Shown here: positions 25,111 to 46,295 of the stretch, piece by piece
Layout: each line of letters starts with the position of its first letter
Position numbering within the stretch: position 1 is the stretch's first letter
The notes under the pieces: generated by a model
Seen by the model: only the letters and a program-made list of their open reading frames with translations
Told to the model about the DNA's origin: nothing
The model's database searches: none
Translations under genes and position numbers: made by a program
From: Polyangiaceae bacterium
Lineage (GTDB): Bacteria > Myxococcota_A > Polyangia > Polyangiales > Polyangiaceae
Length of the DNA: 64,000 nucleotides
Reading direction: 5' to 3'
Assembly (NCBI GenBank): GCA_019637265.1
Contig: JAHBVY010000005.1
Coordinates: forward strand, 186,001-250,000

Positions 25111-26757
25111 TTAGCTCTCCTCGAGCTGGACCTCGACGTACGGGCGCAGGTTCAAGCGCCGCAGGCACACGCGCCGCGCCGCGCGCGCCAGCTCCTCCGC
25201 CAGGCCGCCGCGCCGCCGGAGCCGCGCGTACTCGACCGTGAGCTCGCGCCGCAACGCCGCCAGCTCACTGTGCACGCCGTCGAGGCCCGGCACGCCGCAG
25301 GCGCTCACGGTGAGCCTGAGCTGCGGCTCACGACCGCCAGTCTCCACGGCGTGGAGGAACACCACGCCACCCCGCCCCAGCTCGCGGCGGCGCCGCAGCG
25401 CCTCCGCCGTGAGCTCCGCGCCACCGTAAGCCACGTGGATATAACCGCTCGGAAACGGCTCACCCGAGCGCAGCGAGCTCTTCGTGAGCACGGCTGACTG
25501 ACCGTTCTCGATCACCAGCCGCTCCTCCACCCCGAGGCTCCGCGCCAGCTCCGCGTGGCGCTTCAGGTGATGCAGCGTGCCGTGCACCGGCATGAAGGCC
25601 TGCGGCGAGACGAGCTCGATCAGCTCCGCCTGCTCACCGCGCGCCGCGTGCCCGCTCGCGTGCACCGCGCGGTCGTCACGATAGGTGATGAGCGACAGCT
25701 CTTGCCTCAAGAAGTCGTCGTGCATCCGCGAGACGCCGCGCTCATTACCTGGGATCACGCGGCTCGAGAGGATGACCACGTCCCCCGCGCTGAGCTTCAG
25801 CTGGTGATGCTCGCGGCGCGACAAACGAAACAGTGAGGAGCCCGCCTCACCCTGGGTGCCGCCCGCGAGCACCAGGAGCGACCCCTTGGGGAAGCTCTGC
25901 GCCTGGTCAGGAGAAATGAGTAAGCTGCTCGGCCAGCTCAGGCGCCCGATGCGCGTCGCCACCTCCACCTGCACGTTCAGGCTGCGCCCCAAGAGGCAGA
26001 TGCGCCGCCCCGTCTCCTGCGCGATGGCGCCGAGCGCCGTCAGGCGCTGGATGTTGCTCGCGAACAGCCCCACCACCACGCGCTCCGTCGCCGCGCGGAT
26101 CAGCTTGCCCAGGCGCTCCGCCACCACCCGCTCGCTCGTGGTGCGCCCCTCCGTGTCGATGTTGGTGCTGTCGCTGAGCAAGAGCCGCACGCCCTCCGCG
26201 CCCAGCTCGTAGAGCCGATCGGTGTCCGTCAGCTCACCGTCCGTTGGGCTGGGGTCGAGCTTGAAGTCGCCCGAGTGCAACACCAGGCCCGCCGCCGTGC
26301 GGATCGCCAAGGCGGTGGCGTCCGTGATGCTATGGGTGACGCGGATCGGCTCCACCTGAAACGGCCCCACATCATACGTGTGCCTTACCTCCACCGGCCG
26401 TAAGTCGAGCTCATCTTCCGAGTAGCCGTGCTCTCGCAGGCGATGCATCGCCACCCCGAGCGCGTGCGGCGGCCCCCACACCGGCACGCGGTGCCGCCGG
26501 AGCAAATACGGCAGCGCGCCCACGTGATCTTCATGACCATGGGTCAGGAACACGCCCTGGAGCGGCTGCCCCCGCAGCGAGAGCCAGGAAAAGTCAGGGT
26601 GGATGACGTCTATCCCGTAGTCGTCCTCCGGGAAGGTGGTGCCGCAGTCGATGAGCAGGGTGCCGCCCCGCTGCTCCAGAGCCAGGCAGTTCATCCCCAC
26701 CTGACCCAGCCCCCCCAGGGGCAACAGGCGCAGCTCGTCAGCGCTCAACTCTCGCAT
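25111..26757 (-). CDS. rnj: Ribonuclease J
   Basis: Metallo-beta-lactamase/beta-CASP nuclease with 5'-exo and endonuclease activity in RNA decay. 548 residues from the ATG at 26755-26757 (MRELSADELRLLPLGG), the normal length; the frame continues upstream into unconserved repeat sequence. The zinc-binding motif is LTHGHEDHVGALPYL (H73, H75, D77, H78). LLLSDSTNID and VHASGHAARGE carry the beta-CASP acid and histidine motifs, and MPVHGTLHHLKRH the last. The C-terminal 100 residues form the usual RNase J dimerisation and accessory domain. It appears to be the only RNA-decay gene in the window. Confidence 0.94.
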   Translation of the reverse strand: MRELSADELRLLPLGGLGQVGMNCLALEQRGGTLLIDCGTTFPEDDYGIDVIHPDFSWLSLRGQPLQGVFLTHGHEDHVGALPYLLRRHRVPVWGPPHALGVAMHRLREHGYSEDELDLRPVEVRHTYDVGPFQVEPIRVTHSITDATALAIRTAAGLVLHSGDFKLDPSPTDGELTDTDRLYELGAEGVRLLLSDSTNIDTEGRTTSERVVAERLGKLIRAATERVVVGLFASNIQRLTALGAIAQETGRRICLLGRSLNVQVEVATRIGRLSWPSSLLISPDQAQSFPKGSLLVLAGGTQGEAGSSLFRLSRREHHQLKLSAGDVVILSSRVIPGNERGVSRMHDDFLRQELSLITYRDDRAVHASGHAARGEQAELIELVSPQAFMPVHGTLHHLKRHAELARSLGVEERLVIENGQSAVLTKSSLRSGEPFPSGYIHVAYGGAELTAEALRRRRELGRGGVVFLHAVETGGREPQLRLTVSACGVPGLDGVHSELAALRRELTVEYARLRRRGGLAEELARAARRVCLRRLNLRPYVEVQLEES

Positions 26758-27010: not shown

Positions 27011-27790
27011 TTGTCATTGATAACCGTGCCCCTCAGCGTCCGCCAAAGCACCGAGCTGTTCCACCTCGTCTTCCTCCGCGCGCTCCTCGCGAAGGGTGAT
27101 GACAAGGGGCTCATCGCGCTGAAGGGTGGCTGCAACCTGCGCTTCTTCTTCGGCAGCGTCCGCTACTCGGAAGACCTGGACCTCGACGTCGTGGTGATGG
27201 CGAAAGAAACGCTGAAGAACAAGGTCGACCGCCTGCTGAAGTCACCCGCCGTCGCCACGCCGCTCAAGACCCACGGGCTGACTATCGTCGAGACGTCCGC
27301 TCCCAAGCAGACGGAGACGACCCAGCGGTGGAAGGTGGCGTTGCAACGCGCGGGTGACGCGCTGCCGATCCGCACGAAGGTCGAGTTCTCGCGCCGCGAC
27401 GACATCAAGGGGGCAAGGTTCGAGGCTGCCGATCGCGAAGTGCTCCGCCCCTATGGCCTGATGCCGGTGCTCGCGACGCACTACCTCACGGCATCCGCCA
27501 CGCGCCAGAAGATCCACGCCCTGGCCGCGCGCAGCGAGCCACAAGCGCGCGACGTGTTCGACCTCGCGCTGCTCCTCGCCCGACCGGACGCGGCCGATCT
27601 CTCGCTCGACACCGCCGCCAAGAAGTGGCTGGGTGAGGCGATCGATCGCGCGATGGCGATCTCGTTCGACGAGTACACCTCCCGAGTGGTCGCCTACCTC
27701 GAGCCGGGTCACAGCGACATCTACGCGAGCAGCGACGCGTGGAACGCCCTACAAGAGGACGTCGTCCTTCGACTGGAGGCGCTCCGATGA
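27011..27790 (+). CDS. AbiEii/AbiGii-family nucleotidyltransferase toxin
   Basis: Toxin component of a type IV toxin-antitoxin pair, a nucleotidyltransferase (DUF1814) of 259 residues. In studied AbiE systems the toxin is bacteriostatic and acts during phage infection. The signature LKGGCNLRFFFGSVRYSEDL with DLDV is the G-S/G-x-D-x-D nucleotidyltransferase core, here with GSVRYSEDLDLD. Downstream, RTKVEFSRRD and the helix with QARDVFDLALLLA are typical. The start may be TTG at 27011 or GTG at 27026; both lack a good ribosome site. It comes first and overlaps the antitoxin-like gene by 4 nt, the reverse of the usual order. Confidence 0.85.
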   Translation: MSLITVPLSVRQSTELFHLVFLRALLAKGDDKGLIALKGGCNLRFFFGSVRYSEDLDLDVVVMAKETLKNKVDRLLKSPAVATPLKTHGLTIVETSAPKQTETTQRWKVALQRAGDALPIRTKVEFSRRDDIKGARFEAADREVLRPYGLMPVLATHYLTASATRQKIHALAARSEPQARDVFDLALLLARPDAADLSLDTAAKKWLGEAIDRAMAISFDEYTSRVVAYLEPGHSDIYASSDAWNALQEDVVLRLEALR

Positions 27791-28398
27791 GCTCGACGGA
27801 GGCCCTCGCCATCCTGCGCGATCTGGGTGTGCCGGTGGTCGTCACGTCGGATGCCGCAGCGGCTCTTCAGCTGACGACCGCGGCGGCGAGCCAAACGCTC
27901 ACGCGGCTCGCCCAGGTGGGGCTCATCCGCAAGCTGCGCCACGGCACTTGGTGGCTCGAGAGCGCGGTCGATCCGCTGCGCCTCCCCGAGTACCTCACCT
28001 ATCCCATGCCCGCCTACGTGTCGCTCCAAACGGCGCTGCACCGGCGTGGTCTCATCGAACAGATCCCCGAGGTGGTGTACGCGGTGTCGCTCGCCAAACC
28101 AGCTAGGTTAACCACCTCCGTGGGCACCTTCTCGGTCCACCACGTGGCACCCGAGGTCTTCGGTGGCTTCGAGGTGATCGAGCACGACGTGAAGCTCGCC
28201 ACGGCCGAGAAGGCGCTCTTCGACTTCGCCTACCTCTCGAGCGGCCGCTCGCGCCTGTTCACGAGCTTACCGGAGCTCGAATTGCCGCGCGGATTCAAGC
28301 AGAGCCATCTGTCACGTTGGCTTACCAAAATCCCATCGAGCCGCAGCCGCACCCTCACCGCGCAGAAGCTCGACGAGCTGCTCGCCCGAGCAGCGTAG
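27787..28398 (+). CDS. AbiEi-family antitoxin / transcriptional regulator
   Basis: 203 residues from the ATG at 27787, which overlaps the toxin stop (ATGA). The N-terminus is a winged helix: AILRDLGVPVVVTSDAAAAL, LTTAAASQTLTRLAQVGLIR, RKLRHGTWWL. The middle and C-terminal parts match the AbiEi type: YLTYPMPAYVSLQTALHRRG, VIEHDVKLATAEKALFDFAY and a C-terminal helical end. AbiEi proteins repress their own operon and antagonise the AbiEii toxin without direct binding. Here it lies downstream of the toxin. The 31-bp repeat begins two bases after its stop codon. Confidence 0.83.
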   Translation: MSSTEALAILRDLGVPVVVTSDAAAALQLTTAAASQTLTRLAQVGLIRKLRHGTWWLESAVDPLRLPEYLTYPMPAYVSLQTALHRRGLIEQIPEVVYAVSLAKPARLTTSVGTFSVHHVAPEVFGGFEVIEHDVKLATAEKALFDFAYLSSGRSRLFTSLPELELPRGFKQSHLSRWLTKIPSSRSRTLTAQKLDELLARAA

Positions 28399-28399
28399 C

Positions 28400-28430
28400 G
28401 GATCGATCGGGGGGTTTGCCTGTTTTGCGC
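28400..28430 (+). repeat. 31-bp inverted repeat, left copy
   Basis: Begins GGATCGATCGGGGGGTTTGC and ends TGTTTTGCGC. It is an exact reverse complement (31/31) of 30412-30442. The identity stops sharply at both ends. It begins 2 nt after the AbiEi-like gene. Confidence 0.95.
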
Positions 28431-28462
28431 TGAGCGGCGCTGTAGCAGGCCGTGCTCCGTAG

Positions 28463-29167
28463 TCAGGTGCGCCCACGCTTCGTAACCGCGTAGCGACGCG
28501 CGATGAGCCAGCACACGGTCAGGAAATGCCACGGACGGACACCGCTCGCCTCATCGGCGTAGATGGGGCGCACTGGCACCTCGGCGACGCGCAGCCTGGC
28601 TTGGCTCAGGAGCCCCAACAGGTCATTGGGATAGCCGTAGCGGGGCCACAGCTCATCGAGCGGTAGCACCCTCAGCGCGGCAGCGCTGATCGCGGTGTAG
28701 CCACACTGACTATCACTGAGGGCGTAGCCCGTGGCGCGGGCGGTGAGCCAGCCGAGGGCGTGCCCCGCGGCGCGGCGGGCGAGCGGCATCCGGCGCTTGT
28801 CCGGGTGGATCAGGCGGTTGCCCTTCACGTAGTCGGCGCGGTCCGCCAGGATGGGCTCGGCGAGCGCCGGGAGATCGGCGGGATCCATTTGATCGTCAGC
28901 TGCCATGACGATTATGAGGTCCGCGCCCTCACTGAGAGCACGCCGGTAGCCGGTGCGGATCGCCGCGCCGACCCCGAGGTTCCGCGGGTGCCGCTCCAGG
29001 ACGAGCCGCGCATCGCCTGCTTCGCGAGCTGCGCGACTCGTGGCGTCGGGGCTCGCGTCGTCGACCACCACCACCCCATCCACGCAGGCTGGAACGCGGC
29101 GGAGCGTGCGCGGCAGCAAGCGCTCCTCACGGTAGGCAGGGATCACCAGCCAGATGCTTCGCTGCAT
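28463..29167 (-). CDS. Family 2 glycosyltransferase (DPM1/GtrB-like)
   Basis: Cytoplasmic, probably membrane-associated glycosyltransferase transferring a sugar from a nucleotide donor, possibly to a polyprenyl phosphate. 234 residues from the ATG at 29165-29167 (MQRSIWLVIPAYREERLL); the frame is open much further upstream only as an artefact of base composition. The donor site shows VVVVDDASPDAT and NLGVGAAIRTGYRRAL, and the metal-binding DxD region is MAADDQMDP. RRPAGHALGW-like ARRAAGHALGWLTARATGY and QCGYTAISAAALRVL follow. No C-terminal membrane helices are seen, unlike GtrB. It is the first gene inside the inverted-repeat block. Confidence 0.9.
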   Translation of the reverse strand: MQRSIWLVIPAYREERLLPRTLRRVPACVDGVVVVDDASPDATSRAAREAGDARLVLERHPRNLGVGAAIRTGYRRALSEGADLIIVMAADDQMDPADLPALAEPILADRADYVKGNRLIHPDKRRMPLARRAAGHALGWLTARATGYALSDSQCGYTAISAAALRVLPLDELWPRYGYPNDLLGLLSQARLRVAEVPVRPIYADEASGVRPWHFLTVCWLIARRYAVTKRGRT

Positions 29168-29230
29168 CAGCACGGCGCCTGGTAGCCGTGCCGCACGGCT
29201 CAGGCAAGGCCAGCGTGTGTTGCCGGAGCA

Positions 29231-29884
29231 GTGGGGTCGAGCTATTCGGCGGCGGTGCAGAGCCCCAGCGGGAAAAGCTCCCTGAGCCGCCGCCGCGCGC
29301 TCCAGCTGGGGCTCGGAGCGGGCGGGGTGCTCGTGCTCGGGTGGCTCGGCTACTCGTGGCTGCGCTTCCCCAGCGACCGCACGCCGGAGGGGGCCTACCT
29401 GCGGGTCGTCAGCGCGGTGAACCGCGATCGACCGGAGGCCCTGTTCGCCTACCTGGAGACCGACGCTCAGCACGCCTGTTATTCCGTGGGGAAATATCGC
29501 CGTCAGGCGCGTGACCGCGTGCTCGCGGACTACCCGGAGCCTGAGCGGAGCGAGCTGGCTGAGCGCTACCGTCTCTTCGCGGAGGCGACCGACGGCGAGG
29601 ATGTGTTCGCCTTGTACGCGCGGAGCGAAGGCTGGCTCGATCGGCTGCGCCGCGACCTCTCCGGGGTGGCCCGGGTGGAGGAGGTGGGCGCGCGCGCCAG
29701 CGTGGAGACGGTGCGCGGCACGCGCTACTCGTTCCGGCGCCGTGAGAACGGCATTTGGGGGCTGACGACGTTCACCGCCCCGCTGGTAGCCGAGGGCGAG
29801 AAGGCGGCGCGCGATCTCCAAGTCATCGAGCGGGCGGCGGACGACTACGCGCGCGCCAAGCGCCGCGCACCGGATGGCGGCTAG
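29231..29884 (+). CDS. Hypothetical single-pass membrane-anchored protein
   Basis: 217 residues, GTG start at 29231. A basic SRRRALQ motif precedes a membrane helix at about 25-46 (LGLGAGGVLVLGWLGYSWLR), so the rest (about 47-217) lies outside the membrane. That domain is helix-rich and begins PEGAYLRVVSAVNRDRPEAL, ending in a basic helix. I recognise no family; a similar layout is seen in short SnoaL/NTF2-like domains, but this is a guess. It is divergent from the glycosyltransferase (64 nt) and convergent with the rhodanese gene (34 nt). Confidence 0.65.
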   Translation: MGSSYSAAVQSPSGKSSLSRRRALQLGLGAGGVLVLGWLGYSWLRFPSDRTPEGAYLRVVSAVNRDRPEALFAYLETDAQHACYSVGKYRRQARDRVLADYPEPERSELAERYRLFAEATDGEDVFALYARSEGWLDRLRRDLSGVARVEEVGARASVETVRGTRYSFRRRENGIWGLTTFTAPLVAEGEKAARDLQVIERAADDYARAKRRAPDGG

Positions 29885-29918
29885 CTCACGCCGACTCATC
29901 AGTACGAGCTGGCCGTGC

Positions 29919-30347
29919 TCAGCGGACGCTGGCCGCGAGCGCCTGGTAGCTCCGAGGTCCACCATCCCCGACTTCGACGGGCTTCCCCAGCCGCGCCCAG
30001 CCCGGCGCGCGGCGCCCGAACGCATCGCGGCGTCCGTCGAAGCCCACCGCGAGGTGCGCCAAGCGCTGGAAGCCCGCTCGAGCCAGCACCTCCGCCGCCT
30101 CCAGCGAGCGGTTCCCTGAGCGGCACCCCAAGATCAGGAGCTCTTCCTTATGGAAATGCTCAAGGACCACCGCAGCGAACCGAGGGTTGAGCTCGAAGCG
30201 GATCGAGCCAGCGAACAGGAGCGGCACGTTGTACGCCCCCACCGGGTGCCCCAACACGAACTCCGGCTCCGACCGCACGTCGAGGTAAGGGCGCCCCGCC
30301 GCGAGCAACGCCTCCACCTGATCCGCGTCCAGGTCCTCGACATCCAT
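29919..30347 (-). CDS. Rhodanese-like domain protein
   Basis: Single rhodanese domain of 142 residues, cytoplasmic. The start EDLDADQVEALLAAGRPYLD and VRSEPEF are the usual CH2A region; the active-site loop is CRSGNR with C75 in LLILGCRSGNRSLEAAEVL. The loop has six residues, as in sulfurtransferases rather than phosphatases. Such proteins carry persulfide sulfur or serve in cyanide or redox chemistry. It is the last gene within the inverted-repeat block and has no partner that suggests a substrate. Confidence 0.9.
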   Translation of the reverse strand: MDVEDLDADQVEALLAAGRPYLDVRSEPEFVLGHPVGAYNVPLLFAGSIRFELNPRFAAVVLEHFHKEELLILGCRSGNRSLEAAEVLARAGFQRLAHLAVGFDGRRDAFGRRAPGWARLGKPVEVGDGGPRSYQALAASVR

Positions 30348-30411
30348 CGTGCAGGTACCAGCTGAGGGTGAACCAGTGACTAGCTCCCGGAGACTCGGCT
30401 AGCGCGCTTTG

Positions 30412-30442
30412 GCGCAAAACAGGCAAACCCCCCGATCGATCC
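30412..30442 (-). repeat. 31-bp inverted repeat, right copy
   Basis: Perfect reverse complement of 28400-28430; together they bound 1,981 bp. It lies in a 292-nt gap between the rhodanese gene and the end of purB, and on the minus strand it is downstream of purB, as the left copy is downstream of the AbiEi-like gene. Nothing else is recognised in this gap. Confidence 0.95.
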
Positions 30443-30639
30443 GTGATGGATCGTGAGGCTGCCTTTGATGAGGACGCGCGCTGCTCCGGATGAGCGGCGC
30501 TCGAAGGCCCTATCCAAGGCGCCCACCGCCTCGCGGCGAGCCCTCACGCTGCCAGCCCGGCAGACTGGAGCGATGGAGCTGCGCGGTGGCCACGTGGCCA
30601 GGAAGCCACCTGTCATCCAGCCTGCCCTGATGGTCACCT

Positions 30640-31938
30640 TCACGCCTCGATCGCGCGCTGCACGAGCAACTCGGCGTGGCGCAGGGTGTGGCTCAGGTCG
30701 AAGCAGCGATCGAGCACCTCGGGGCCGAGGTGCGCGGTGACGTCGGGGTCGGCACCGAGTAGTACGCGGAACTCACCTTCGCCTGACCAGGCGCGCATCG
30801 CGCTGCGCTGCACCAGCTCGTAAGCGCGCTGGCGCGGGAGGCCGGCGCCCACCAGCTCCAGCATGACCCCTTCGCTGAAGTAGAGGCCGCCGCTCTTCGC
30901 CAGGTTCCGCGCGAGCGCCTCGGGGTACACCACCAGGCCCTCCACCACCTGCGTGGCGCGCTCCAACATGAAGCCGAGGGTGGCGGTGACATCCGGCGCC
31001 AGCATGCGCTCCACCGAAGAGTGCGAGATGTCGCGCTCGTGCCAGAGGGCGATGTTCTCGAGCGCGGGCGTCACCGCGGCGCGCACCACGCGCGCGAGGC
31101 CACACAGGTTCTCGCTGAGCACGGGGTTGCGCTTGTGAGGCATCGCCGAAGAGCCCTTCTGCCCCTGGCTGAAGCGCTCCTCCGCCTCCGCCACCTCAGT
31201 GCGCTGCCAGTGACGCACGTTCGTCGCCAGGCGCTCGATCGCCGCCGCGAGCAGCGCGAAGGCAGAGAACAGCGCCGCGTGACGATCCCGCGCCACCACT
31301 TGGGTGGCCACCGTCTCCGGCGTGAGGCCGAGCGCCGAGAGCGCCTCCGCTTCGAGCTGAGGCGTGAGGTGCGCGTAGGTGCCCACCGCGCCCGCCAGCT
31401 TCCCCACCGCCACCTCCGCGCGCGCCGCCTTCACCCGCTGGGCGGCGCGCTTCACCTCCGCGAGGTGCCCCGCGAGCGCCACGCCGAAGGTGACCGGCTC
31501 CGCGTGGATACCGTGAGAACGCCCGATCATCGGCGTCTTCGCGTGCTCCTTCGCGCGCGCTGCGAGCGCTGCGATCAGCGCCTCGGCGCGCTGCGAGATG
31601 GCGTCCGTCGCTCGCGTGAGGAGGAGCGCGAGGGAGGTGTCGAGCACGTCGCTCGAAGTGAGGCCGCGATGGAGCCAGCGCGCAGGCTCACCCGCGAGCT
31701 CCTCCACGTGGGTGAGGAAGGCGATCACGTCGTGGCGCGTGGTGCGCTCGATCTCGTCGATGCGCGCCGCCGAGAGCGTCAGCGACTGCGCGCGGATGGC
31801 GCTCGCGGTGCCCGCGGGCACGAGCCCCGCTTTCTCCATCGCCTCGGTCGCGGCCAGCTCCACGGTGAGCCACGTTTGATAACGCGTGTCGTCGGACCAC
31901 AGCTCGAGGAACTCACGGGGGGTGTAGCGCGGGATCAT
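30640..31938 (-). CDS. purB: Adenylosuccinate lyase
   Basis: Catalyses two fumarate-releasing steps of purine synthesis, forming AICAR and AMP. 432 residues, typical of the shorter bacterial PurB class. The fumarase/aspartase superfamily signature [17 protein letters not shown] is intact, [14 protein letters not shown] and [14 protein letters not shown] carry the two earlier conserved blocks with the catalytic histidine, and [17 protein letters not shown] the third. The C-terminal helical domain is normal. It is alone; the next gene, a large lipoprotein, ends 61 nt upstream. Confidence 0.96.
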
Positions 31939-31999: not shown

Positions 32000-34900
32000 T
32001 CACTCGGCTTGGACGCTGACGCCTGGCAACGCGTAGATCTCGGGCGGCACAGTCGCCGTCGGGTCGAAGCGGCAGCTCATCGGCAGCGGCTCGAAGCCGG
32101 GTGGCTGCCCTTCGGGCGCTCGCTGGAAGAGCCAGGCGTGCTCGAGATCGTGAGGGAGGATCAGCGCGTGGTCGGCGTCGTCTTCCACGCCGTGCGCGTC
32201 CAGAGCCGCGAGGCAGGGCGCCGTCGCGGTGCCGCCCAGCACCACGGAGCCGGAGATGAGCACGCGCTCCGCCTCGTCACCGACCACGATCACGGGGTGC
32301 CGTCCGCCGTTCAGGAATGGCTCCACGATCCGCGGACCGCTGGTGAGATCGCTCGCGCTGCAGCGCGTGGGCGCGGCGCCGAGCGCGACCTGGCTCGGCG
32401 CGGGGAGCGGCTCACCGCCCAACGACGCGGCGATGGGGAGCACGATGGTGCCTCCCCTGCCGCGCTCATCGAAGCGGGTGACCTGGAGCAGCTCGCGCCC
32501 GGCGTGCGCGGTGAGCGCCAGCTCGAGCTGGCGGTTCGCGACGCGCGCCTCGAGCGTACCAAAGCTCATCACGTCGATGGTTCCGCGCGGATCACGCACC
32601 ACCGCCGCGGCGTGGTTCAGCACGCTCAGCTCGAGGGCCACCCCGCCATCCTCCTTCGACGCGTGCACCCAGCCGAGCGTGACGCCCACGCTCCCCGAAG
32701 TGCTCCAGCGCGCCGTGGGGAAGGCAACCCGACTGCTCGCTTCGTCGATGAAGTAGGCTGCTTCACCCGAAGCTTGCAAGAACACCCCGCCCGGGGCGGG
32801 CTGCACGACGCCGCTGCCCAAGCCCACACCACGCACGCCGAGGCCGCCACTGCCCAAGGTACCCAGGCCACCCAAGCCACCGCCCGCAGCCGACCTCCCC
32901 GAGTCGAACAAGCCGCTCAGCTCGCTCGGATCGATCGGGCCAAACAGGCCGCTCACCTCGCCGCCCGACTCCTCCAAGATCTTGAGGATGCCCGAGCCGC
33001 CCCGCGGCTGCGGCTGCTTGGCAGCAGGTGCCTTCGGCTGCGGCTGCTTGGCGGGAGGTGCCTTTGGGGCGGGAGCCTGCTCACGTACGCCCAGCTGACC
33101 GATCCGCCGCGAGCGCAGCTTCCCATCGGCGGCGTCGTACCAGGCCACCTCCAGCTGCTGAACGCCACCCCCCGGCGCCGGGAGGTAACGCGCCGCCGCG
33201 GCGCCATGCTGATTCACCGCGCGGTGCACACGGTAGCCCACCGCGCTCTTGAGCGGTGGTAAGAGCACCTGAGCATCTACCCGCGACTCACGGCCGCGAT
33301 GCCCAGCGCGGAGCAACGTGACCGCCCCGGTCGCCGAGTCCGCCGCGAGGAACCACCACGCGTCCGCGCCGAGCACGGCCGCCTCCGCCTTCGGGGCGCT
33401 GGTGAGGCGCGGGAGAGATCGTTCGGGAGGCTCACTCAAGGTGCACACGAGCGGCGTCCGCAGCCGCCGCACGCGCTGCTGCGCGCTCCCCGGCCTGGGC
33501 ACGATAGGCAGCTCCTCTGATGGCTTGCCCCAGCCGCTCCGACTCAGGAAATCCCCCACCACGCAGCCGCTCACGCTGCACACCACGCTCGTTTCGCAGC
33601 TCCCGCTCTCACACAGCTTGCCGGGCAGCGGCCCGAGCGATCGCCACTCGGCGCCGCCGTCTTGTGTCTCCCACACCTCGCCGCGACCCTGGGCGAGCCC
33701 ACGCCCGCCGGCGATGCCGAGCGCCTGGGTGCCCGACGGCGTCCCCTCGTTCACCATCAGCGGGCGCCCGTCGTAGTCCGTCACCACCAGGTGGGTCTCC
33801 GGGCCATACGCCACGCTGAAGCCGAACGTCGCGTCATCCCCCGCGCCGAAGCGCACGCGGGGCGGAGCGGAGCGCTCGCTCACCATCGGCACCTCGGCGA
33901 TGTCTTCACCGCGGAAGGTCTTGCCGCCGTCCGTCGAGGTGAAGACCGCGAAATGCGCGTCCTTGGCGCGGATCCCCGCCGCCACGGCCACGCGCCCGTC
34001 GGGCGAGAACCCGAGCGTGAGCGCGCGACCACGCAGCGAAGGCGTAGTCGCGGGACGGAACTTCAGGCCGCCCTCCTCCTCTTCCGCGAGGGAATGAATC
34101 CCCTCGGGGATGCAGCCAGCGGCCGACGCGTCCTCCTTACACAGCCCGCTGACGAGCAGCGCCCCAGCGTCCCCCACCGCGAGCTCGAGCCCCGCGATGC
34201 GCCCCACCGCCTCCACCTCGAGCTCGTGCCAGTCCTTGCCTGCGTCCGCGCTCTCATAGAAGCCAATCGGCTGAGAAGGGTCCCCCGGCCGCTCGCCGCA
34301 GGCCACCACCAGCCGTCGCTCGAACGCGCCCAGCTTGATCGTGGCGCACTCAGGGAGGCTGACGGGTCGTACGCTGAGCTCACCTTTGAGCGTGCCGCTC
34401 CGGAGCTCCCAGGTCCGCTTGCCCGGCGTCCGCGCGATCTCGAGGTAGCGCTCACCCAGGAGCACCGCGCTCCGTTGCTCGAGCGCGCTGGCCCGCGGCC
34501 CGTAACCGAGCTCAGCCTCGATCTCCAGGCCCTTGGGCGCCGCCCCGCCCCCGCCACCCTGTTTGACAGCTCCCTTGACGATCCGTTGCTCTTCGCGATG
34601 CCCGCGCACCACCACGCCCTCACCCTGGCGCACCAGCGTGTGCGCCCCGACCCGCGGGGCGTCCAAGGGGCGCCACGATCGGCCACTGTCGGACGTCATC
34701 CACAGCCGCTCAGGGAACGACAACGCGTAGCCCTCGCGCGCGCCAACCAGCTCCACGTCAGCGAAGCGATCGACCTGGCGCGCTCCAGGCACCTTCGCTG
34801 GGACCCACTCGCTCGCGCCGCTCGCCTCGAGCTCGAGGCTCACCAGCGCCCCGTGGGTGTCCACGCCCGCGAGCCCCTCATCCCCCACCGACATCCTCTC

Positions 34901-35380
34901 GAGGCCCCGCGTGGGCGCCACCACCCGCGAGAACTCTCCGAGCGGCGTCGCGGCGATGTAGTGCGTGCCGCTCGCGCCCACGAACACCCAGCGGTCCCCA
35001 CGCGGCGCGGCGAACACCAACGTCTCCCCCGCCAGCCGCGGCGCCGCTCGAGGTGCGCCCTTCGGCGTCGTGAGCCAGCGCTCACCGCCCTCACCCACGT
35101 AGAGCGCGCTCCCCTTCGTGAGCTCCACCTTGGCGTGCATCTTCGCGGGGCGCGAGGGGTGATATCGCCAGGTTGCCGGACCACTTCCTTCGGCGCTCTT
35201 CGCCAAGGTGAGGAGCGACGTGCGCGGCGCTTCGTGCTGCGGCGCGCCGCACGAAGCCACCAGGAGCGAAGCCAGCGCAGCCGTCACAGGTGCGCGAGTG
35301 GGTTTTGGGGGTTTGGCAGCGCACCCCACGGCCGCGCTGCGGCCCCCTCGAGAGACCCTGGGCTTGAAACGACTGACCAT
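32000..35380 (-). CDS. Very large BNR/beta-propeller lipoprotein
   Basis: 1,126 residues from the ATG at 35378-35380. The leader holds a basic region and a hydrophobic stretch VTAALASLLVASC, a lipobox, so it is a lipoprotein. The leader is unusually long because residues about 15-30 (CAAKPPKPT and neighbours) are encoded by a copy of the dispersed G/T module. The mature part has many sialidase/BNR-like Asp-box repeats (MTSDSGRSWRPLD, YESADAGKDWHELE, FTSTDGGKTFRGED, ETQDGGAEWRSLG), giving one or two propellers. A low-complexity region follows with KQPQPKAP repeats and a Gly/Leu stretch (GGLGGLGTLGSGGLG). Function unknown; probably surface or periplasmic. Confidence 0.8.
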   Translation of the reverse strand: MVSRFKPRVSRGGRSAAVGCAAKPPKPTRAPVTAALASLLVASCGAPQHEAPRTSLLTLAKSAEGSGPATWRYHPSRPAKMHAKVELTKGSALYVGEGGERWLTTPKGAPRAAPRLAGETLVFAAPRGDRWVFVGASGTHYIAATPLGEFSRVVAPTRGLERMSVGDEGLAGVDTHGALVSLELEASGASEWVPAKVPGARQVDRFADVELVGAREGYALSFPERLWMTSDSGRSWRPLDAPRVGAHTLVRQGEGVVVRGHREEQRIVKGAVKQGGGGGAAPKGLEIEAELGYGPRASALEQRSAVLLGERYLEIARTPGKRTWELRSGTLKGELSVRPVSLPECATIKLGAFERRLVVACGERPGDPSQPIGFYESADAGKDWHELEVEAVGRIAGLELAVGDAGALLVSGLCKEDASAAGCIPEGIHSLAEEEEGGLKFRPATTPSLRGRALTLGFSPDGRVAVAAGIRAKDAHFAVFTSTDGGKTFRGEDIAEVPMVSERSAPPRVRFGAGDDATFGFSVAYGPETHLVVTDYDGRPLMVNEGTPSGTQALGIAGGRGLAQGRGEVWETQDGGAEWRSLGPLPGKLCESGSCETSVVCSVSGCVVGDFLSRSGWGKPSEELPIVPRPGSAQQRVRRLRTPLVCTLSEPPERSLPRLTSAPKAEAAVLGADAWWFLAADSATGAVTLLRAGHRGRESRVDAQVLLPPLKSAVGYRVHRAVNQHGAAAARYLPAPGGGVQQLEVAWYDAADGKLRSRRIGQLGVREQAPAPKAPPAKQPQPKAPAAKQPQPRGGSGILKILEESGGEVSGLFGPIDPSELSGLFDSGRSAAGGGLGGLGTLGSGGLGVRGVGLGSGVVQPAPGGVFLQASGEAAYFIDEASSRVAFPTARWSTSGSVGVTLGWVHASKEDGGVALELSVLNHAAAVVRDPRGTIDVMSFGTLEARVANRQLELALTAHAGRELLQVTRFDERGRGGTIVLPIAASLGGEPLPAPSQVALGAAPTRCSASDLTSGPRIVEPFLNGGRHPVIVVGDEAERVLISGSVVLGGTATAPCLAALDAHGVEDDADHALILPHDLEHAWLFQRAPEGQPPGFEPLPMSCRFDPTATVPPEIYALPGVSVQAE
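35289..35325 (+). repeat. G/T-rich module enclosed by a 7-bp stem, inside a coding region
   Basis: GGTGCGC and GCGCACC flank a loop with GGGTTTTGGGGGTTTGGCA. It falls within the leader coding region of the BNR lipoprotein on the other strand, where it is read as AAKPPKPT. Confidence 0.65.
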
Positions 35381-39415: not shown

Positions 39416-40036
39416 TCAGGGGGCGCCGAGGATGGCGCTCAAGCCCAGCTGGAGTCCGAGCGGTAGCCTGCGCGGATAGTCACGAAGCTCTGGATCTGGA
39501 TCGGGCCCAAGGGCCCCACACTGACTGTCCGAACCCTCAGGTCCCCAGCCGTAAGCAACGTGAGGCCCAACTACGAAGTACCCCAAAGCGAGGCCGACGA
39601 ACCCTCGTACTCCTGGTGACCAACCAGAGTAGCCCAGGTGACGGCAGAAGGCGGTGATGACAGCTGGACCGTCTATCACGCCCAAGCCCGCAGCGACCCC
39701 GACCACGATAGGCAGCTCCGCGAACCGATGCTGATATCCCACCCGCAAGGGCACAATCATCGTGCTCCCGAACGACTGTCGTTCGCCGACCAGCCTGTCT
39801 TCGAGCGTGAGGTGGTACCGCCACACCTCAGGCCCCGCCTCGAAGCCATGAAACCGCGCCGCGAGGCCCACCCCCACCCCACCGCGCGCCTCGAAGCCAC
39901 CCGGCAGCCAGGCCCCATGAAGCTGCAACTCGGCGCGCCAGGGCGATGGAGGCGGCTCGGGCGCCTCCATCGCGGCGACCGGCGCCGGCAAGACCACGAC
40001 GACCACTAAACTGACTAACGCCACCAGCCTGCTCAT
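39416..40036 (-). CDS. Putative outer-membrane beta-barrel protein
   Basis: 206 residues from the ATG at 40034-40036. A signal peptide is clear (MSRLVALVSLVVVVVLPAPV then AAM, cleaved near residue 28). The mature part is made of amphipathic beta-like segments with many Gly and aromatic residues: RAELQLHGAWLPGGFEARGG, LAARFHGFEAGPEVWRYHLT, LRVGYQHRFAELPIVVGVAA, GLALGYFVVGPHVAYGWG. Two cysteines may form a disulfide. I recognise no named family; outer-membrane location is inferred. The DNA just before the signal-peptide start carries AACTGACTAACG, one of the CTGACT islands. Confidence 0.7.
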   Translation of the reverse strand: MSRLVALVSLVVVVVLPAPVAAMEAPEPPPSPWRAELQLHGAWLPGGFEARGGVGVGLAARFHGFEAGPEVWRYHLTLEDRLVGERQSFGSTMIVPLRVGYQHRFAELPIVVGVAAGLGVIDGPAVITAFCRHLGYSGWSPGVRGFVGLALGYFVVGPHVAYGWGPEGSDSQCGALGPDPDPELRDYPRRLPLGLQLGLSAILGAP

Positions 40037-40315
40037 GGGACACTGTACCAGTCGATAGACTGACTTGGCACTGACACCGCGGCTTGCTGAACCAGAGTCG
40101 AGCCGACCGTTCGTGCCGAACGCTTCGAGCATCCCGTGCGTTCAGGGGACGGTCCTCCGAACGGACGGCAGCGATCAGCACACGGACGCTGACTGTCGAT
40201 CCGAGGAAGCATGCTAGGATCGGATCACACCGGCTCGATCGCTTGGCCATCGTTGCAGGGGCCACTCGCGCTGCGCTGATCACATGGGTCTAGCGGCCTG
40301 CTAGGCTCCGGCCCC

Positions 40316-42142
40316 ATGCAGCCGGAGATCTGGATCTCGACCGGAGTCTTGGTCGTGGCGATCGCGCTCTTCGTGAGCGACCGGCTGCGGCTCGACGTGG
40401 TGGCGCTGATGGCGCTGCTCGTGCTCGCGTTGACAGGGGTACTGACACTCGAGGAGGCGCTGGCCGGCTTCTCGAACCCCGTCGTGCTGATGATGGTGGG
40501 CCTGTTCGTGGTCGGCGCGGCGCTGTCCGACACCGGCGTCGCCGACTGGCTCGCGCACCGCCTGGAAGCGCTGGCTGGCCAGAGCGAGACGCGGCTCGTG
40601 ACGACGGTGATGCTCGTCACCGCGTCGCTGTCCGCCTTCATGAGCTCAACCGGTACGGTCACCGTCCTATTGCCGGTGGTGGGCACCCTGGCGCAGCGCC
40701 GCGGCGTGCCCGCCTCGCGCGTGCTGATGCCGCTCGCCTTGGCCGCGCACCTCGGCAGCATGCTCACCCTGATCAGCACCGCGCCCAACCTGATCGCGAG
40801 CGAGGCGCTGCGCCGCGCGGGGCGCGCGCCGTTCCAGTTCTTCAGCTATTTTCCGGCTGGAATCGTGATCCTCACGGTGGGCATCGTGTTCTTCGTCGCC
40901 TACGCGCGGCGGAAGCTCCCGGCGGGTGACACCCAGCGAGCCCAGCGCATGCTCTCGCCGGACGACCTGGGCCGCGAGTACGGCCTGCTCGACTGCATGC
41001 ACACCGCCGAGGTGGTGGAAGGCTCGAAGCTCATCGGGATGACGCTGGCGGAGGCGAGCCTGCGCCCGAATCACCACGTGACGGTGGTCGGCATCCAGGG
41101 CCACCGCGGGGCGAAGCGGGTGCTGCCGGGCACCGTGTTCGAGGAGGGGGACTTGCTGCGCGTCCACGGCGCCTGGGACCCGGTGTCGCGCGCCGTCGAC
41201 CACTGGGGGCTCGAGCTCTTGAGCCCCGAGTCGGGGGTGGCGCCGTCGCTGTCACTCGCGCCGGAGGAGTCCGTGGTGGAGCTCGTCATCCCACGGCGCT
41301 CGCGGCTTGCCGGGCGCAGCCTGAAGGAGTCGCGCTTTCGCGATCGGCACAGCGGCACCGTGCTCGCCGTGCGGCGCGGGCGCGAAGAGCCGGCGATGAG
41401 CCTCAGCGCACCCGAGTTCAAGGACTTCACGCTGCGGGCCGGCGACGTGCTGCTGGTGAAGGGGCGCCGGAAGTACCTCCAGAACCTGCGCGAGGAGCGG
41501 CGCGACTTCGTGCTGCTCTCGGAGCCGGATGGTCAGACGACCTTCGTCGATCGAGGCCGCGCGCTGTTCGCGCTCGCCGTCACCCTGGGCATGCTGGTGG
41601 TGATGGCGTTCGGGTGGCTCCCGAGCGTGCTCGTGATCCTGCTCGCGGCGGTGCTGATGGTGCTGCGTCACTGCGTGAGCGCGCGTGAGGCGTATCGCGC
41701 GGTGGGTTGGGAGAGCGTGGTGCTGGTCGCGGGGATGATCCCGGTGTCGTTCGCCTTGGAGAAGTCGGGCGCGATGGGGCTCGTGGTGGGCTGGCTCGAG
41801 CCGCGGCTGTTCGGGCTGAACCCGTGGCTGGTGCTGGGCCTCTTGATGCTCACCACCTCGATCATGGGCCTCGTGGTCTCGAACACCGCCACGGCGCTCT
41901 TGGTGGCACCTGCGGCCGTGAGGCTCGCGACGGCGCTCGATCTCGCACCCGAGCCGCTGCTCATGGGGGTGGCGGTGGCGGCCTCGGGTGCCTTCGCGAC
42001 GCCGATCGCCTCGCCCGTCAACTCGCTGGTGATGGCCCCCGGCGGCTACCGCTTCGCGGACTACGTGCGGGTGGGCGCGCCGCTGCAAATCCTGGTGCTG
42101 GTCACGGGGCTGGCCGTCATCCCCTGGATCTTCCCGTTTTAG
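40316..42142 (+). CDS. SLC13/DASS-family anion transporter with two RCK_C domains
   Basis: Sodium-coupled or exchange transporter of the divalent anion/sulfate group, 608 residues. Membrane helices fill about 1-200 and 415-608; between them are two RCK_C (TrkA-C) domains (about 215-310 and 315-405), for example GSKLIGMTLAEASLRPNHHV and SRLAGRSLKESRFRDRHSGT. Transport signatures are FMSSTGTVTVLLPVV and STAPNLIAS in the first half and VVSNTATALLVAPAAV with ASPVNSLVMAPGGY in the second, the paired SNT-type motifs. Many such proteins import sulfate or dicarboxylates; the substrate is not decided. It stands alone. Confidence 0.92.
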   Translation: MQPEIWISTGVLVVAIALFVSDRLRLDVVALMALLVLALTGVLTLEEALAGFSNPVVLMMVGLFVVGAALSDTGVADWLAHRLEALAGQSETRLVTTVMLVTASLSAFMSSTGTVTVLLPVVGTLAQRRGVPASRVLMPLALAAHLGSMLTLISTAPNLIASEALRRAGRAPFQFFSYFPAGIVILTVGIVFFVAYARRKLPAGDTQRAQRMLSPDDLGREYGLLDCMHTAEVVEGSKLIGMTLAEASLRPNHHVTVVGIQGHRGAKRVLPGTVFEEGDLLRVHGAWDPVSRAVDHWGLELLSPESGVAPSLSLAPEESVVELVIPRRSRLAGRSLKESRFRDRHSGTVLAVRRGREEPAMSLSAPEFKDFTLRAGDVLLVKGRRKYLQNLREERRDFVLLSEPDGQTTFVDRGRALFALAVTLGMLVVMAFGWLPSVLVILLAAVLMVLRHCVSAREAYRAVGWESVVLVAGMIPVSFALEKSGAMGLVVGWLEPRLFGLNPWLVLGLLMLTTSIMGLVVSNTATALLVAPAAVRLATALDLAPEPLLMGVAVAASGAFATPIASPVNSLVMAPGGYRFADYVRVGAPLQILVLVTGLAVIPWIFPF

Positions 42143-42208
42143 TCACCTAAGCTGATGGTCAGGCGCACGGCGCGCTGACGCGCAGCGTCCGATCGGCGCT
42201 CTGAAGCG

Positions 42209-42595
42209 CTACGGCCGCGCGAAGGCGGCCACGCACACCGCGACCCAGCCGGCCATCAAGAGCAGCCCTCCGAACGGCGTCACGGCGCCGAGCCAACGCG
42301 CGCCGGTGAGCGTCATCGTGTAGAGGCTGCCGGAGAACACCACGATCCCCGCGGCGAAGCACACCCCCGCGACGCGCGGCGACATCCCCGCGCCACGCGA
42401 CGTGAGCCACGCCGCGAAGGCGATGCCGAGCGCGTGGATCAAATGGTACCGCGCCGCCGTCTCCCACCACCCCAGGCGGGTGGTGGCATCCTCGAGGCCC
42501 GCCAAGGCCTTGGTGAGCCCATGCGCACCGAACGCACCCAGCCCCACCCCCAGGCACCCGAACACACCAGCGAGCAAGATCAGGAGTCGCTCCAT
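42209..42595 (-). CDS. DUF423 membrane protein
   Basis: Small inner-membrane protein of 128 residues from the ATG at 42593-42595, with four membrane helices. The family pattern is intact: GLGAFGAHGLTKAL, WWETAARYHLIHALGIAFAA, FAAGIVVFSGSLYTMTLTGA and AVTPFGGLLLMAGW. The function of the DUF423 (YgdD) family is not established. It is convergent with the SLC13 gene, 66 nt apart, and divergent from the AlbA_2 gene (97 nt). Confidence 0.92.
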   Translation of the reverse strand: MERLLILLAGVFGCLGVGLGAFGAHGLTKALAGLEDATTRLGWWETAARYHLIHALGIAFAAWLTSRGAGMSPRVAGVCFAAGIVVFSGSLYTMTLTGARWLGAVTPFGGLLLMAGWVAVCVAAFARP

Positions 42596-42692
42596 GACGA
42601 GGTACCTAGCCCCGATGGCCACCCCCGGCTAGCGCGCCGAACGAGCCACTGCCGAACAGGAGGCCCGCCCTCGTGCTAGAAGTCGGGACGTG

Positions 42693-43940
42693 ATGAGCCA
42701 CCTCCCGATCGGCATCGGCGAGCTGCTCTCGGGCGCGGTGGAGACGGCGCGCTTGGAGCTCAAGGCCTCGTGGGATCCGCGCACGACGGGACCCCAGGTG
42801 CTGAAGACGCTCTGCGCCTTCGCCAACGATCTCCAAAACCTCAACGGGGGCTACGTCCTCATCGGCGTCGCGGAGGCGTCGGGGACCGCGGTGCGGCCCG
42901 TACGCGGCCTCGATGACGAAGCGCTGGACGCCGCGCAGAAGTGGATTCGCGGGAACGCGAAGCGCATCGAACCAGTGTACATGCCGGTCTTCGACGTCGC
43001 GCACATCGACGGGAAGCGAGTGCTCGTCCTGTGGGCGCCCGCCTCGGACACGCGCCCGCACCAGGCGCCGGACGGCGCCAAGGGCGCACGAAAGTACTGG
43101 ATCCGTATCAACAGCGAGTCGGTGGAGGCGAGCGGAGAGCTCCTCACCAGCCTGATCCAGCAAACTGGACGGGTGCCGTTCGATGACCGACGGGCTCAGG
43201 ACGCGACCAACGAGGACCTCAGCTTCGCGGTGGTGCGTGAGTTCTTGAAGGATGTCCAGAGCGAGCTGCTCAGTGAAACGGACCATGAGCGCGTGTACCG
43301 AGCGATGCAGATCGTGTCTCAGGTCAACGGGCACACGATGCCCAAGAACATCGGGCTCCTGTTCTTCTCGAATGACCCGGAGCGGTGGTTCCGCGGCGCG
43401 AGGATCGAGGTCGTCAGTTTCCACGATGCAGCGGGCGGTGACACCCTCACCGAGAGGGTGTTCCGCGGTCCGCTCCACGAGCAGGTCAGGCAGTGTGTGC
43501 TCTACCTCGATGGCCTGATCTCACGTCACCTGGAGAAGCAGAGCGACAGGCTCGAGGCGCGAGCTTGGGTGAGCTTCCCCATCCCCGCGCTGCGCGAGGC
43601 CATCGTCAACGCCGTCTACCACCGGAGCTACGAGGGCAGCGTCGAGCCGACCAAGGTCTACATCTACCCTGACCGAATCGAGCTCATCAGCTACCCAGGG
43701 CCGGTGCCTGGCATCGAGATGCGCCACCTCGAAGCAGCCGCCGTTCCTCCGCCGGTGCCCGCGCGCAATCGGAGGATTGGGGAGCTGCTCAAAGAGCTGC
43801 GCCTCGCAGAATCTCGCGGGACTGGGCTATCGAAGATCCGGCGGACCATGGCGGAGAATGGCTCGCCCTCACCAACGTTCGAGTTCGACGAGGCCAGATC
43901 CTACTTTCGGGTCACGCTGCCCGCGCACCCTCACGCGTGA
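42693..43940 (+). CDS. Schlafen-like AlbA_2 and ATP-binding domain protein
   Basis: 415 residues from the ATG at 42693 (a GTG three bases earlier is also possible). The N-terminal AlbA_2/Schlafen domain (about 10-150) shows ETARLELKASWDPRTTG, ALCAFAND-like LCAFANDLQNLNGGYVLIGV and YWIRINSESVEASGELL. The C-terminal region (about 250-415) is the GHKL-like ATPase domain seen in RecG-related COG2865 proteins: FPIPALREAIVNAVYHRSYE, YIYPDRIELISYPGPVPGI, and RGTGLSKIRRTMAENG. Such proteins are putative transcriptional regulators and some belong to phage-defence loci. The gene has no obvious partner here. Base use is slightly lower in GC than its neighbours, consistent with transfer. Confidence 0.88.
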   Translation: MSHLPIGIGELLSGAVETARLELKASWDPRTTGPQVLKTLCAFANDLQNLNGGYVLIGVAEASGTAVRPVRGLDDEALDAAQKWIRGNAKRIEPVYMPVFDVAHIDGKRVLVLWAPASDTRPHQAPDGAKGARKYWIRINSESVEASGELLTSLIQQTGRVPFDDRRAQDATNEDLSFAVVREFLKDVQSELLSETDHERVYRAMQIVSQVNGHTMPKNIGLLFFSNDPERWFRGARIEVVSFHDAAGGDTLTERVFRGPLHEQVRQCVLYLDGLISRHLEKQSDRLEARAWVSFPIPALREAIVNAVYHRSYEGSVEPTKVYIYPDRIELISYPGPVPGIEMRHLEAAAVPPPVPARNRRIGELLKELRLAESRGTGLSKIRRTMAENGSPSPTFEFDEARSYFRVTLPAHPHA

Positions 43941-44046
43941 CCTCACCCGCCAACGCAGGGCCGCATCCACGCCGCTCGTGAGTCACTTGACCTGACCAAG
44001 GGTCCCACCGGAGCGCCGAGCGCGGCGCGTCTTGGCGCCTTGCGGG

Positions 44047-44961
44047 CTACGGGACGGCCTTCGCGTCTTCGAGCAGCATGGGGTAGCGGTAGCCTGAGCC
44101 GAAGTCGACGTCGGTCTTGAAGACGCCTTCGAGCACCAGCTGGGTGCCGACTTGAGGCTCGAGGGTCGTGGTGACGGCGAGATCCACCACGCGGCCGCCG
44201 CTCGTGCTGCCGTCCTTCACGTGGAGGAAGCTCTTGCCGAAGATGCCGGTGGTGAGCTTGGTCACCTCGACATGGATCCTGACTGTCTTCCCGTGGTAGC
44301 GCGCGGCGTCGCCGGCCAGCTCGGCCAGCAGCACCCCGGCGCTGCCCGGTGCGCGCGAGAGCACGCTGCCCACTGGCGCGGGGGCGTAAGGGCCCGGAGC
44401 TCGAGGCGCCGTCGCAGACGCCGCGGCGGGTGCGCCTGCTGCAGCGGGAGGCTGACCTTGAGCTGCTGCGGCAGAGCCCGCGGGGCCCACGTCGCCCAGC
44501 ACACCGAAGTAGATGCGCTCGAAGCGTCGCCCGAGGGTGGGGCTGTCGAAGTCTTCCATCAGGGTGGTGCTCGGGATCGTCACCGACTGCCCCACCGAGA
44601 CGGGGGCCTTCTTCACCGCCGCCCACACTTCACCGCTCGGGGTTTGGAGCCTCAAGTAGGTGTACTCCGCCACCTCGAGCCGCTCGAGCACCACCCCGGC
44701 GAGACCCGAAGCGCCCGGCGCGCCGTGCGTCGCAGGCGCCTGTGGGTGAGCCGGCGCGAGCGGCGCCTGTCCTGGTGACTGACCAACTGGCGGGTGCCCC
44801 GCTGGCAGGGCACCTGGCTCCACGAGCGGCGCCTCGGTGGGGAGCGCCTCCGCGCGCGCCGCGGTGGACCGCGGAGACTCTTCGGCGCTGTCTGGCTTGA
44901 GCCAGAAGCCAACGACCGCCGCGAGCGCGACCGCGGGGACCAACAGGTGGACGGGCTTCAT
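44047..44961 (-). CDS. NrfJ-like OB-fold envelope protein
   Basis: 304 residues from the ATG at 44959-44961, with an N-terminal signal anchor (about 4-21, VHLLVPAVALAAVVGFWL) and a Pro/Ala-rich linker to about residue 95. Two OB-fold-like modules follow: one near 96-165 (VLERLEVAEYTYLRLQTPSG, then EVWAAVKKAPVSVGQSV and MEDFDSPTLGRRFERIYFG), which matches the NrfJ pattern closely, and one near 225-304 (GKTVRIHVEVTKLTTGIFGK, SFLHVKDGS). NrfJ relatives occur with nitrite-reductase and other periplasmic redox genes; none is near. It is probably periplasmic, and ligand binding is inferred only from the fold. Confidence 0.82.
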   Translation of the reverse strand: MKPVHLLVPAVALAAVVGFWLKPDSAEESPRSTAARAEALPTEAPLVEPGALPAGHPPVGQSPGQAPLAPAHPQAPATHGAPGASGLAGVVLERLEVAEYTYLRLQTPSGEVWAAVKKAPVSVGQSVTIPSTTLMEDFDSPTLGRRFERIYFGVLGDVGPAGSAAAAQGQPPAAAGAPAAASATAPRAPGPYAPAPVGSVLSRAPGSAGVLLAELAGDAARYHGKTVRIHVEVTKLTTGIFGKSFLHVKDGSTSGGRVVDLAVTTTLEPQVGTQLVLEGVFKTDVDFGSGYRYPMLLEDAKAVP

Positions 44962-45086
44962 CTCGTCTGCGTAGCACGACCTGCACAGGTAAAGCACTGC
45001 CTCGCGGGGTGAGACCCACGCGGCGCCGGGCGCCCGACCGCCCGCTCCGCGGCGCGGGTCTGCTATGACCCGAGCTCGCGCTCGTC

Positions 45087-46295
45087 ATGCCCACCCCCAA
45101 GCAAGTCGCCGCGGCGCTCAAGGAGCTGAAGCAGGTCGGTCGTCGTGAGCCGCGGCTCGCGGTGGAGGGCTGCATCCGCCTGCTCACCGGGCTCAAGGCC
45201 AAGGACGGCGCGCTGGACGACGTGCTGCGCGAGATCATCGACTGGCTCGGCGCGCCCATGCGCCGCGCCAAACCCCCTGAGCCCGAGCTCATGGATTGGC
45301 TCGAGCGCCTCGCCAAGGCCTACCGCGCCCAGCCCGCGCGCCTCGCCTCGCTCGGCGCCCGCTTCGGTGCCCTGTGCGGCTCCCCAGCCATCGCCTCACG
45401 CTGGGCGGATCGTTTCCGAGAGGAATTATACGCAGCGCAGCCAGCTCGAGCGATGAAGGCCACCCTTTCATCATCTAAATTGACTAAATCGGCCAAGGCA
45501 ACGCAGTCAATCCAGTCAGCTCAGCTGCCGGGCGAGGCACACGCGCTCCGCCTGCCGTACCTCAGCGCGCTGAGCGCGGCCGGGCGCCATGAAGAGCTCC
45601 GGAGCGCGCTCGAGCCGGGCGCGAACAGCTGGGCGGAGGCCGCGCTCGGGGTGAAGGCGCTCGCCGCCCTGGGTCAGGTGGACGCGGCGCTCAGCACCGC
45701 GCATCAGTATGCTCATCTGACTACACCGGTGGAGCACGCCCGCGCCTGCGAGGCGGCGCTCTTGGCCGCTGGGCGCGAAGAGGACGCCTACCGGGAGCAC
45801 GCGCTGCTCGCCGCGCAGGAGACGCGCTACGTCGCATGGTTCCGCGCGCTGAGGCAGCGGTACCCGCGGCGCGATCCGAAGGAGCTCTTGAGCGACTTGG
45901 TCAGCTTCACTACCTCCCAGCACGGCGAAGCGATCCGCGGCAAGTGGTTCGCGGCCGCCAAGGAGGCCGAGCTCTACCAGGAGGCGATCGCCCTCGCGCG
46001 GAGCGGCGACGCCGACACCCGCACCCTGCTCCGCGCCGCGCGCGACTTCGCCGAGCGCGAGCCGCACTTCGCGCTTCAGGCGGGGCTCACCGCGCTCACG
46101 GCGATGCTCGAGGCGGGCCCCTATGAAGTCACTAAAACTGACGTGTGGACCGCCTACAACGCGATCCTGCTCGCCGCGAACGCGGCGAATCAGCGCGCCG
46201 AGGTCATCGAGCAGCTGCGCGCGCTGCTGCGCCCCGAAGCGGTGCGCGATCGCCTGGTCACGCGCACCCTGAGCCGCGAGCTGAACCTCTCGTAA
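45087..46295 (+). CDS. TPR-like helical protein, unknown function
   Basis: 402 residues, no signal peptide or membrane segment. Almost entirely helical with repeated Ala/Leu-rich hairpins of TPR or HEAT type, for example LPYLSALSAAGRHEELRSAL, AALGVKALAALGQVDAALST and ACEAALLAAGREEDAYREHA. I recognise no named family. Residues about 122-150 form a Ser/Thr/Lys/Gln-rich insert (SSSKLTKSAKATQSIQSAQL) encoded by strikingly AT-rich DNA (45451-45537) carrying TTGACTAAA and CCAGTCAGCT, unlike the flanking codons. A second short AT-rich island with ACTGAC lies at 46127-46143. Confidence 0.7.
   Translation: MPTPKQVAAALKELKQVGRREPRLAVEGCIRLLTGLKAKDGALDDVLREIIDWLGAPMRRAKPPEPELMDWLERLAKAYRAQPARLASLGARFGALCGSPAIASRWADRFREELYAAQPARAMKATLSSSKLTKSAKATQSIQSAQLPGEAHALRLPYLSALSAAGRHEELRSALEPGANSWAEAALGVKALAALGQVDAALSTAHQYAHLTTPVEHARACEAALLAAGREEDAYREHALLAAQETRYVAWFRALRQRYPRRDPKELLSDLVSFTTSQHGEAIRGKWFAAAKEAELYQEAIALARSGDADTRTLLRAARDFAEREPHFALQAGLTALTAMLEAGPYEVTKTDVWTAYNAILLAANAANQRAEVIEQLRALLRPEAVRDRLVTRTLSRELNLS
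45451..45537 (+). repeat. AT-rich in-frame CTGACT/AGTCAG island
   Basis: A stretch with TCTAAATTGACTAAATCGG and AATCCAGTCAGCTCAGCTG inside the 402-residue helical protein. Base composition and codon use change abruptly at both ends, as expected for an inserted repeat. Confidence 0.55.

Follow-up and report, generated by a model that had tools for sequence, protein, structure and literature searches.

A block of three genes, encoding a glycosyltransferase of family 2 (GT2), a 217-aa membrane protein here called mem217 and a rhodanese-domain protein, is inverted in this genome relative to all informative relatives, and the inverted segment lies between two short, perfect inverted repeats, hereafter the arms, that are copies of a module dispersed through the genome. 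The window, the whole stretch of 64,000 nucleotides that was analyzed, comprises positions 186001-250000 of contig C17 in a 21-contig draft of a 5.7-Mb genome (G000). We consider it probable that genome-specific dispersed repeats acted as arms and that recombination between inverted copies flipped the native segment. The analysis links a repeat family restricted to one genome with a lineage-specific block inversion within a conserved neighbourhood; it also exposed a genome-wide regularity, namely that same-orientation neighbours of this family are avoided within about 3 kb. The features discussed are listed in Table 1.

Table 1. The three-gene block, its arms and the neighbouring genes, in window coordinates
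Feature	Coordinates	Strand	Family or match
RNase J, left anchor of the conserved order; adjoins rhodanese in relatives	25111..26757	-	
AbiEii-like toxin, between RNase J and left arm	27017..27790	+	PF08843, PADLOC
AbiEi-like antitoxin	27787..28398	+	PADLOC AbiEi 2.1e-23
Left arm, module copy CGGATCGATCGGGGGGTTTGCCTGTTTTGCGC; starts right after AbiEi stop codon	28399..28430	+	
GT2, first block gene	28463..29167	-	PF00535
mem217, second block gene (217 aa; alternative start 29327)	29231..29884	+	without known family
Rhodanese-domain protein, third block gene	29919..30347	-	PF00581
Right arm, module copy; exact reverse complement of left arm	30412..30443	-	
purB, right anchor; adjoins glycosyltransferase in relatives	30640..31938	-	

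The two arms are exact reverse complements over 32 of 32 bases, as established from the sequence and by a repeat search, and they form the longest perfect inverted repeat among all those found in the window. The preliminary description had reported an exact match over 31 of 31 bases that ended abruptly on each side; the exactness was confirmed, over one base more, and the flanks outside the arms are indeed unrelated to each other, but looser similarity continues for about 11 nt inward (a 43 nt alignment at 88%). For the 21-nt inner part of the arm, dinucleotide shuffles of the window gave zero expected matches. The right arm lies 64 bp upstream of the rhodanese start and 196 bp past the purB stop. 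A target-site duplication, which had been suggested as a point to check, is not visible in the outer 9-mers at the block ends, GCAGCGTAG and TGATGGATC. A genome search found a third, 30-base copy of the arm on contig 4, with three mismatches, and located the arm 21-mer GGGGGTTTGCCTGTTTTGCGC at 31 genomic places with at most three mismatches, six of them exact; the arm sequence is therefore not unique to the three-gene block. Five of these 31 matches (L013, L014, L016, L019 and L023) fall in copies of one repeated coding sequence (...KKGKPP...), which we take to resemble the N-terminus of an IS66-type transposase, and are probably due to chance.

The gene order around the block was compared with that of relatives, which are distant enough that their intergenic DNA is not alignable, using gene calls from a home-made finder. 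In the relatives the order is metallophosphatase (-), RNase J (-), rhodanese (+), mem217 (-), glycosyltransferase (+), purB (-) and the next gene (-). The window reads metallophosphatase (-), RNase J (-), AbiEii (+), AbiEi (+), arm and glycosyltransferase (-), and continues with mem217 (+), rhodanese (-), arm, purB (-) and the next gene (-). Thus the three genes are reversed in both order and strand, a state seen only here among informative relatives, and the arms fill both breakpoint gaps, AbiEi/GT2 and rhodanese/purB. The segment between the arms has inverted. In one relative, G008, twelve orthologues of genes from window position 17,038 to about 55,000 are collinear with the window in order and strand, the three block genes are reversed, and gene 14553 is also not collinear. 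When the surroundings of mem217 were examined at 16 loci in relatives, RNase J was found on the rhodanese side in 11 and purB on the glycosyltransferase side in 7; the window's arrangement occurred at none of the 16. The same-genus genome G001, whose purB is 75% identical in DNA sequence, has mem217 followed by RNase J on its contig 104. At least 20 genomes, including G008, G033, G018 and G001, show the ancestral arrangement at one border or at both, and the inversion therefore most likely arose in this lineage after its split from G001. The earlier idea of an inversion-prone segment holds up as a past event, since the comparison across genomes found the block present in the relatives and, in those 20 or more genomes, in the opposite orientation, and since both breakpoint gaps hold an arm. 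The glycosyltransferase by itself lies on the other strand in G022 and the congeneric G111, where the order is unchanged. Through the inversion, the rhodanese gene has come to lie downstream of purB and in the same direction, with its start facing the right arm; judged from this layout, the inversion may possibly alter expression.

The three block genes are native and core to the family, being present in nearly all relatives. The glycosyltransferase was matched in 58 of 59 genomes searched, with only a weak match in the same-genus draft, and of 108 genomes from the family, 103 contained mem217; the block as a whole is single copy in this genome. The gene content given in the preliminary description was borne out, with Pfam families for the first and third genes and no Pfam or NCBIfam match for mem217, and Pfam and PADLOC likewise supported its AbiEi-like toxin-antitoxin pair and purB as neighbours. 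Its statement that no transposase or integrase is present also stood: in the proteins searched with Pfam, which lie between 14.5 and 47.4 kb, no transposase, integrase or recombinase was detected. At the left border, the AbiE pair represents an additional insertion; the AbiEii-like toxin had no match at the corresponding place in the relatives' loci. Further right, a 1046-aa protein without a Pfam family (32000-35140) adjoins purB here and in several relatives. The region 39416-46295 encodes a CitMHS transporter, DUF423, a Schlafen/AlbA_2-HATPase protein and three genes without Pfam families; these have no orthologues at that place in four relatives, in which 38705 is followed by 46641. Rfam gave no match in the window.

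Both arms come from a family of short, asymmetric repeats that is dispersed through intergenic DNA and genome-specific as far as tested, in line with the suggestion that each was a copy of a G/T module. In the genome there are 448 occurrences of the core GGGGGTTTGSC, versus 10 of a reversed control pattern; the numbers of the core in 58 relatives are near the control (9 versus 10 in the same-genus genome, at most 26 elsewhere). Across as much as 2.46 Mb of the genome, a module was seen to consist of a tract of about 10 bases, mostly G and T (often with TTTT, sometimes GATC), that ends in GGGGGTT(T)G before one of several heads: TGGCAGCGCGCTGCG, GGACGGCACCGCGC, TGCCTGCACCGCGC or TGCCTGTTTTGCGC, GGTAGCGC, CACTCCC and others. 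Conservation drops about 25-30 bases past the core. Of a sister head, GGGGTTGGACGGCACCG, this genome has 213 exact copies, compared with a single one in 182 further genomes from the order. In the 2.46 Mb examined there are 526 modules, which extrapolates to about 1,200 in the whole genome, and 370 of 580 tracts are intergenic, whereas intergenic DNA makes up 14% by the home-made gene finder. Genes flanking the modules show every strand combination; where these genes are co-directional there is a mild sense preference (176 sense versus 112 antisense, of 522 modules). A promoter or terminator role was rejected, given that modules occur in all gene contexts and that the 112 lie between two antisense genes as against 176 between sense genes. 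Three other features were considered and set aside. Head matching within module pairs as a system was rejected, the +- class having a small excess only; a second conserved block upstream or downstream of the module is weak at best; and a strand polarity along the contig was rejected, the + bias being confined to the matches listed and reverse copies existing beyond them. A search of the literature, mainly of non-subscription papers, gave no account of this family. In one of its pairs, on G000:C1 (about 458,792 to 461,275), two CACTCCC-head modules 2.5 kb apart flank a single gene and form a perfect inverted repeat of 49 bp.

The orientation of modules along the chromosome is not random. Adjacent modules tend to alternate, 63% of neighbours being opposite (z 6.0); second neighbours lean toward the same orientation and third neighbours toward the opposite one. 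Examples in the window are 20956+, 25014-, 28416+, 30425-, 35313+, 36193- and 39275+. Among module pairs within 3 kb in the 2.46 Mb, 72 have the same orientation and 202 the opposite. When orientations were permuted with positions fixed, 136.8 +/- 8.3 same-orientation pairs were obtained, with a minimum of 112 in 2000 permutations, so that the real number is about two-fold lower. The depletion persists with 0, 1, 2 or 3 genes between the modules, and the pattern is independent of the strand of the intervening gene. Generic G/T tracts of at least 9 show no depletion, with about equal numbers of same (673) and opposite (610) pairs below 3 kb. We hypothesize from this arrangement that same-orientation pairs would recombine and delete the DNA between them, so that opposed pairs remain. 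A broader proposal, which we regard as rather doubtful, is that the modules may form a genome-specific system of recombination or chromosome architecture that would purge pairs of like orientation, retain opposed ones and now and then invert a gene block, as in this case. Should the modules serve as substrates for recombination, they would offer a natural record of very short repeats purging and reshuffling a bacterial chromosome.

The modules were compared with REP elements, in which a hairpin-capable palindrome is tagged with GTAG or CGTC at one end and which are associated with RAYT transposases (PMC3733652). Like GTAG-tagged REPs, the modules are tens of bp long, present in hundreds of copies, intergenic and strongly different between species (PMC3733652). 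Unlike them, the module is not a tagged palindrome, and several unrelated heads stand behind one G/T-led core. The arm is asymmetric and contains no GTAG- or CGTC-tagged palindrome, and related A and B modules give no marked pairing peak across tract and head. A search for RAYT (Y1_Tnp, PF01797) found no match in the 21-contig draft, whereas control genomes do match. A second dispersed family, found on C1 and C12 (for example at C1:134611 and C1:187866), has the palindrome GTAGGGGCGGGTTTCAAACCCGCCC(CTAC) and is REP-like with a GTAG tag; it is present although the genome has no PF01797 match.

With the block reversed and an arm in each breakpoint gap, the inversion most likely occurred by recombination between the arms. 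Two module copies with the same uncommon head, opposed in orientation, would have lain to either side of the native trio; by recombining with each other, they would flip the segment from glycosyltransferase through mem217 to rhodanese. We infer that the arms were at both borders before the inversion and caused it, and did not arrive together with the breaks or later; the relatives lack modules, and they are too distant for an alignment of intergenic DNA. A native segment reversed in order and strand between inverted repeats at both borders is the form expected of inversion by inverted-repeat recombination. Evolutionary inversions between inverted repeats usually involve IS elements or rRNA operons; unlike these usual substrates, the arms are much shorter, at only 32 bp, and their family is confined to this genome.

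The main rival to arm recombination holds that staggered double-strand breaks occurred, one of them inside a single module, and that repair duplicated this module in inverted form at both ends, the arms being the product. We judge this unlikely. The arms do share all 32 bp, including the outer CGGATCGATC, which exceeds the match of either to the third copy, and their head is uncommon among modules, as duplication of one module would predict; however, opposed pairs at a spacing below 3 kb are frequently seen with no inversion (the 202 above, as well as pairs of 49 bp and 30 bp), so no break is needed to form such a pair. It is quite unlikely that the association is a coincidence, in which the inversion was caused otherwise and two related modules happen to sit in the border gaps. 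Modules are dense and mostly intergenic, and opposed neighbours are their commonest arrangement, but a chance placement would have to account for an arm in each of the two gaps, for both arms carrying the same uncommon head and for the length of the repeat they form, unmatched in the window. Very unlikely is a reversible inverton, in which a site-specific recombinase encoded elsewhere flips the segment as phase variation. Invertons are phase-variable segments flanked by short inverted repeats, 10-40 nt in length (PMC11892184), a range that includes the arms, and, as here, the segment between them can lie in an orientation opposite to that in relatives. Unlike invertons, this segment has no recombinase nearby by Pfam (14.5-47.4 kb), its arms belong to a set of hundreds of dispersed modules, and it holds three whole, ordinary genes of mixed strand and not a promoter or a surface-protein shufflon. 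Finally, a non-autonomous mobile cassette with 31-bp terminal repeats, as first proposed from the perfect inverted repeats at both ends and the adjoining toxin-antitoxin pair, and resembling a MITE in lacking its own transposase, is hardly credible and already refuted by the conserved neighbourhood, in that the same native, single-copy genes stand together between RNase J and purB in relatives, the target duplication is absent, and the many dispersed single copies of the arm speak against a bounded mobile element, the segment being inverted nevertheless.

Whether recombination between arms, the reading preferred here, extends to other module pairs was addressed by taking four further opposed pairs (T2, T5, T8 and T9; shared stretches of 19-30 bp) and searching up to six relatives, by means of a single concatenated query, for orthologues of the bracketed and flanking genes. 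In all four, the bracketed genes are uninverted relative to the relatives; at T2, G022 alone differs, through another segment. Module pairs therefore rarely cause inversions, and the idea that modules are general inversion hot spots was rejected. In G022, at C19:229660-236252, the orthologues of C1:1427359 and C1:1429544 are inverted relative to this genome and to four other relatives.
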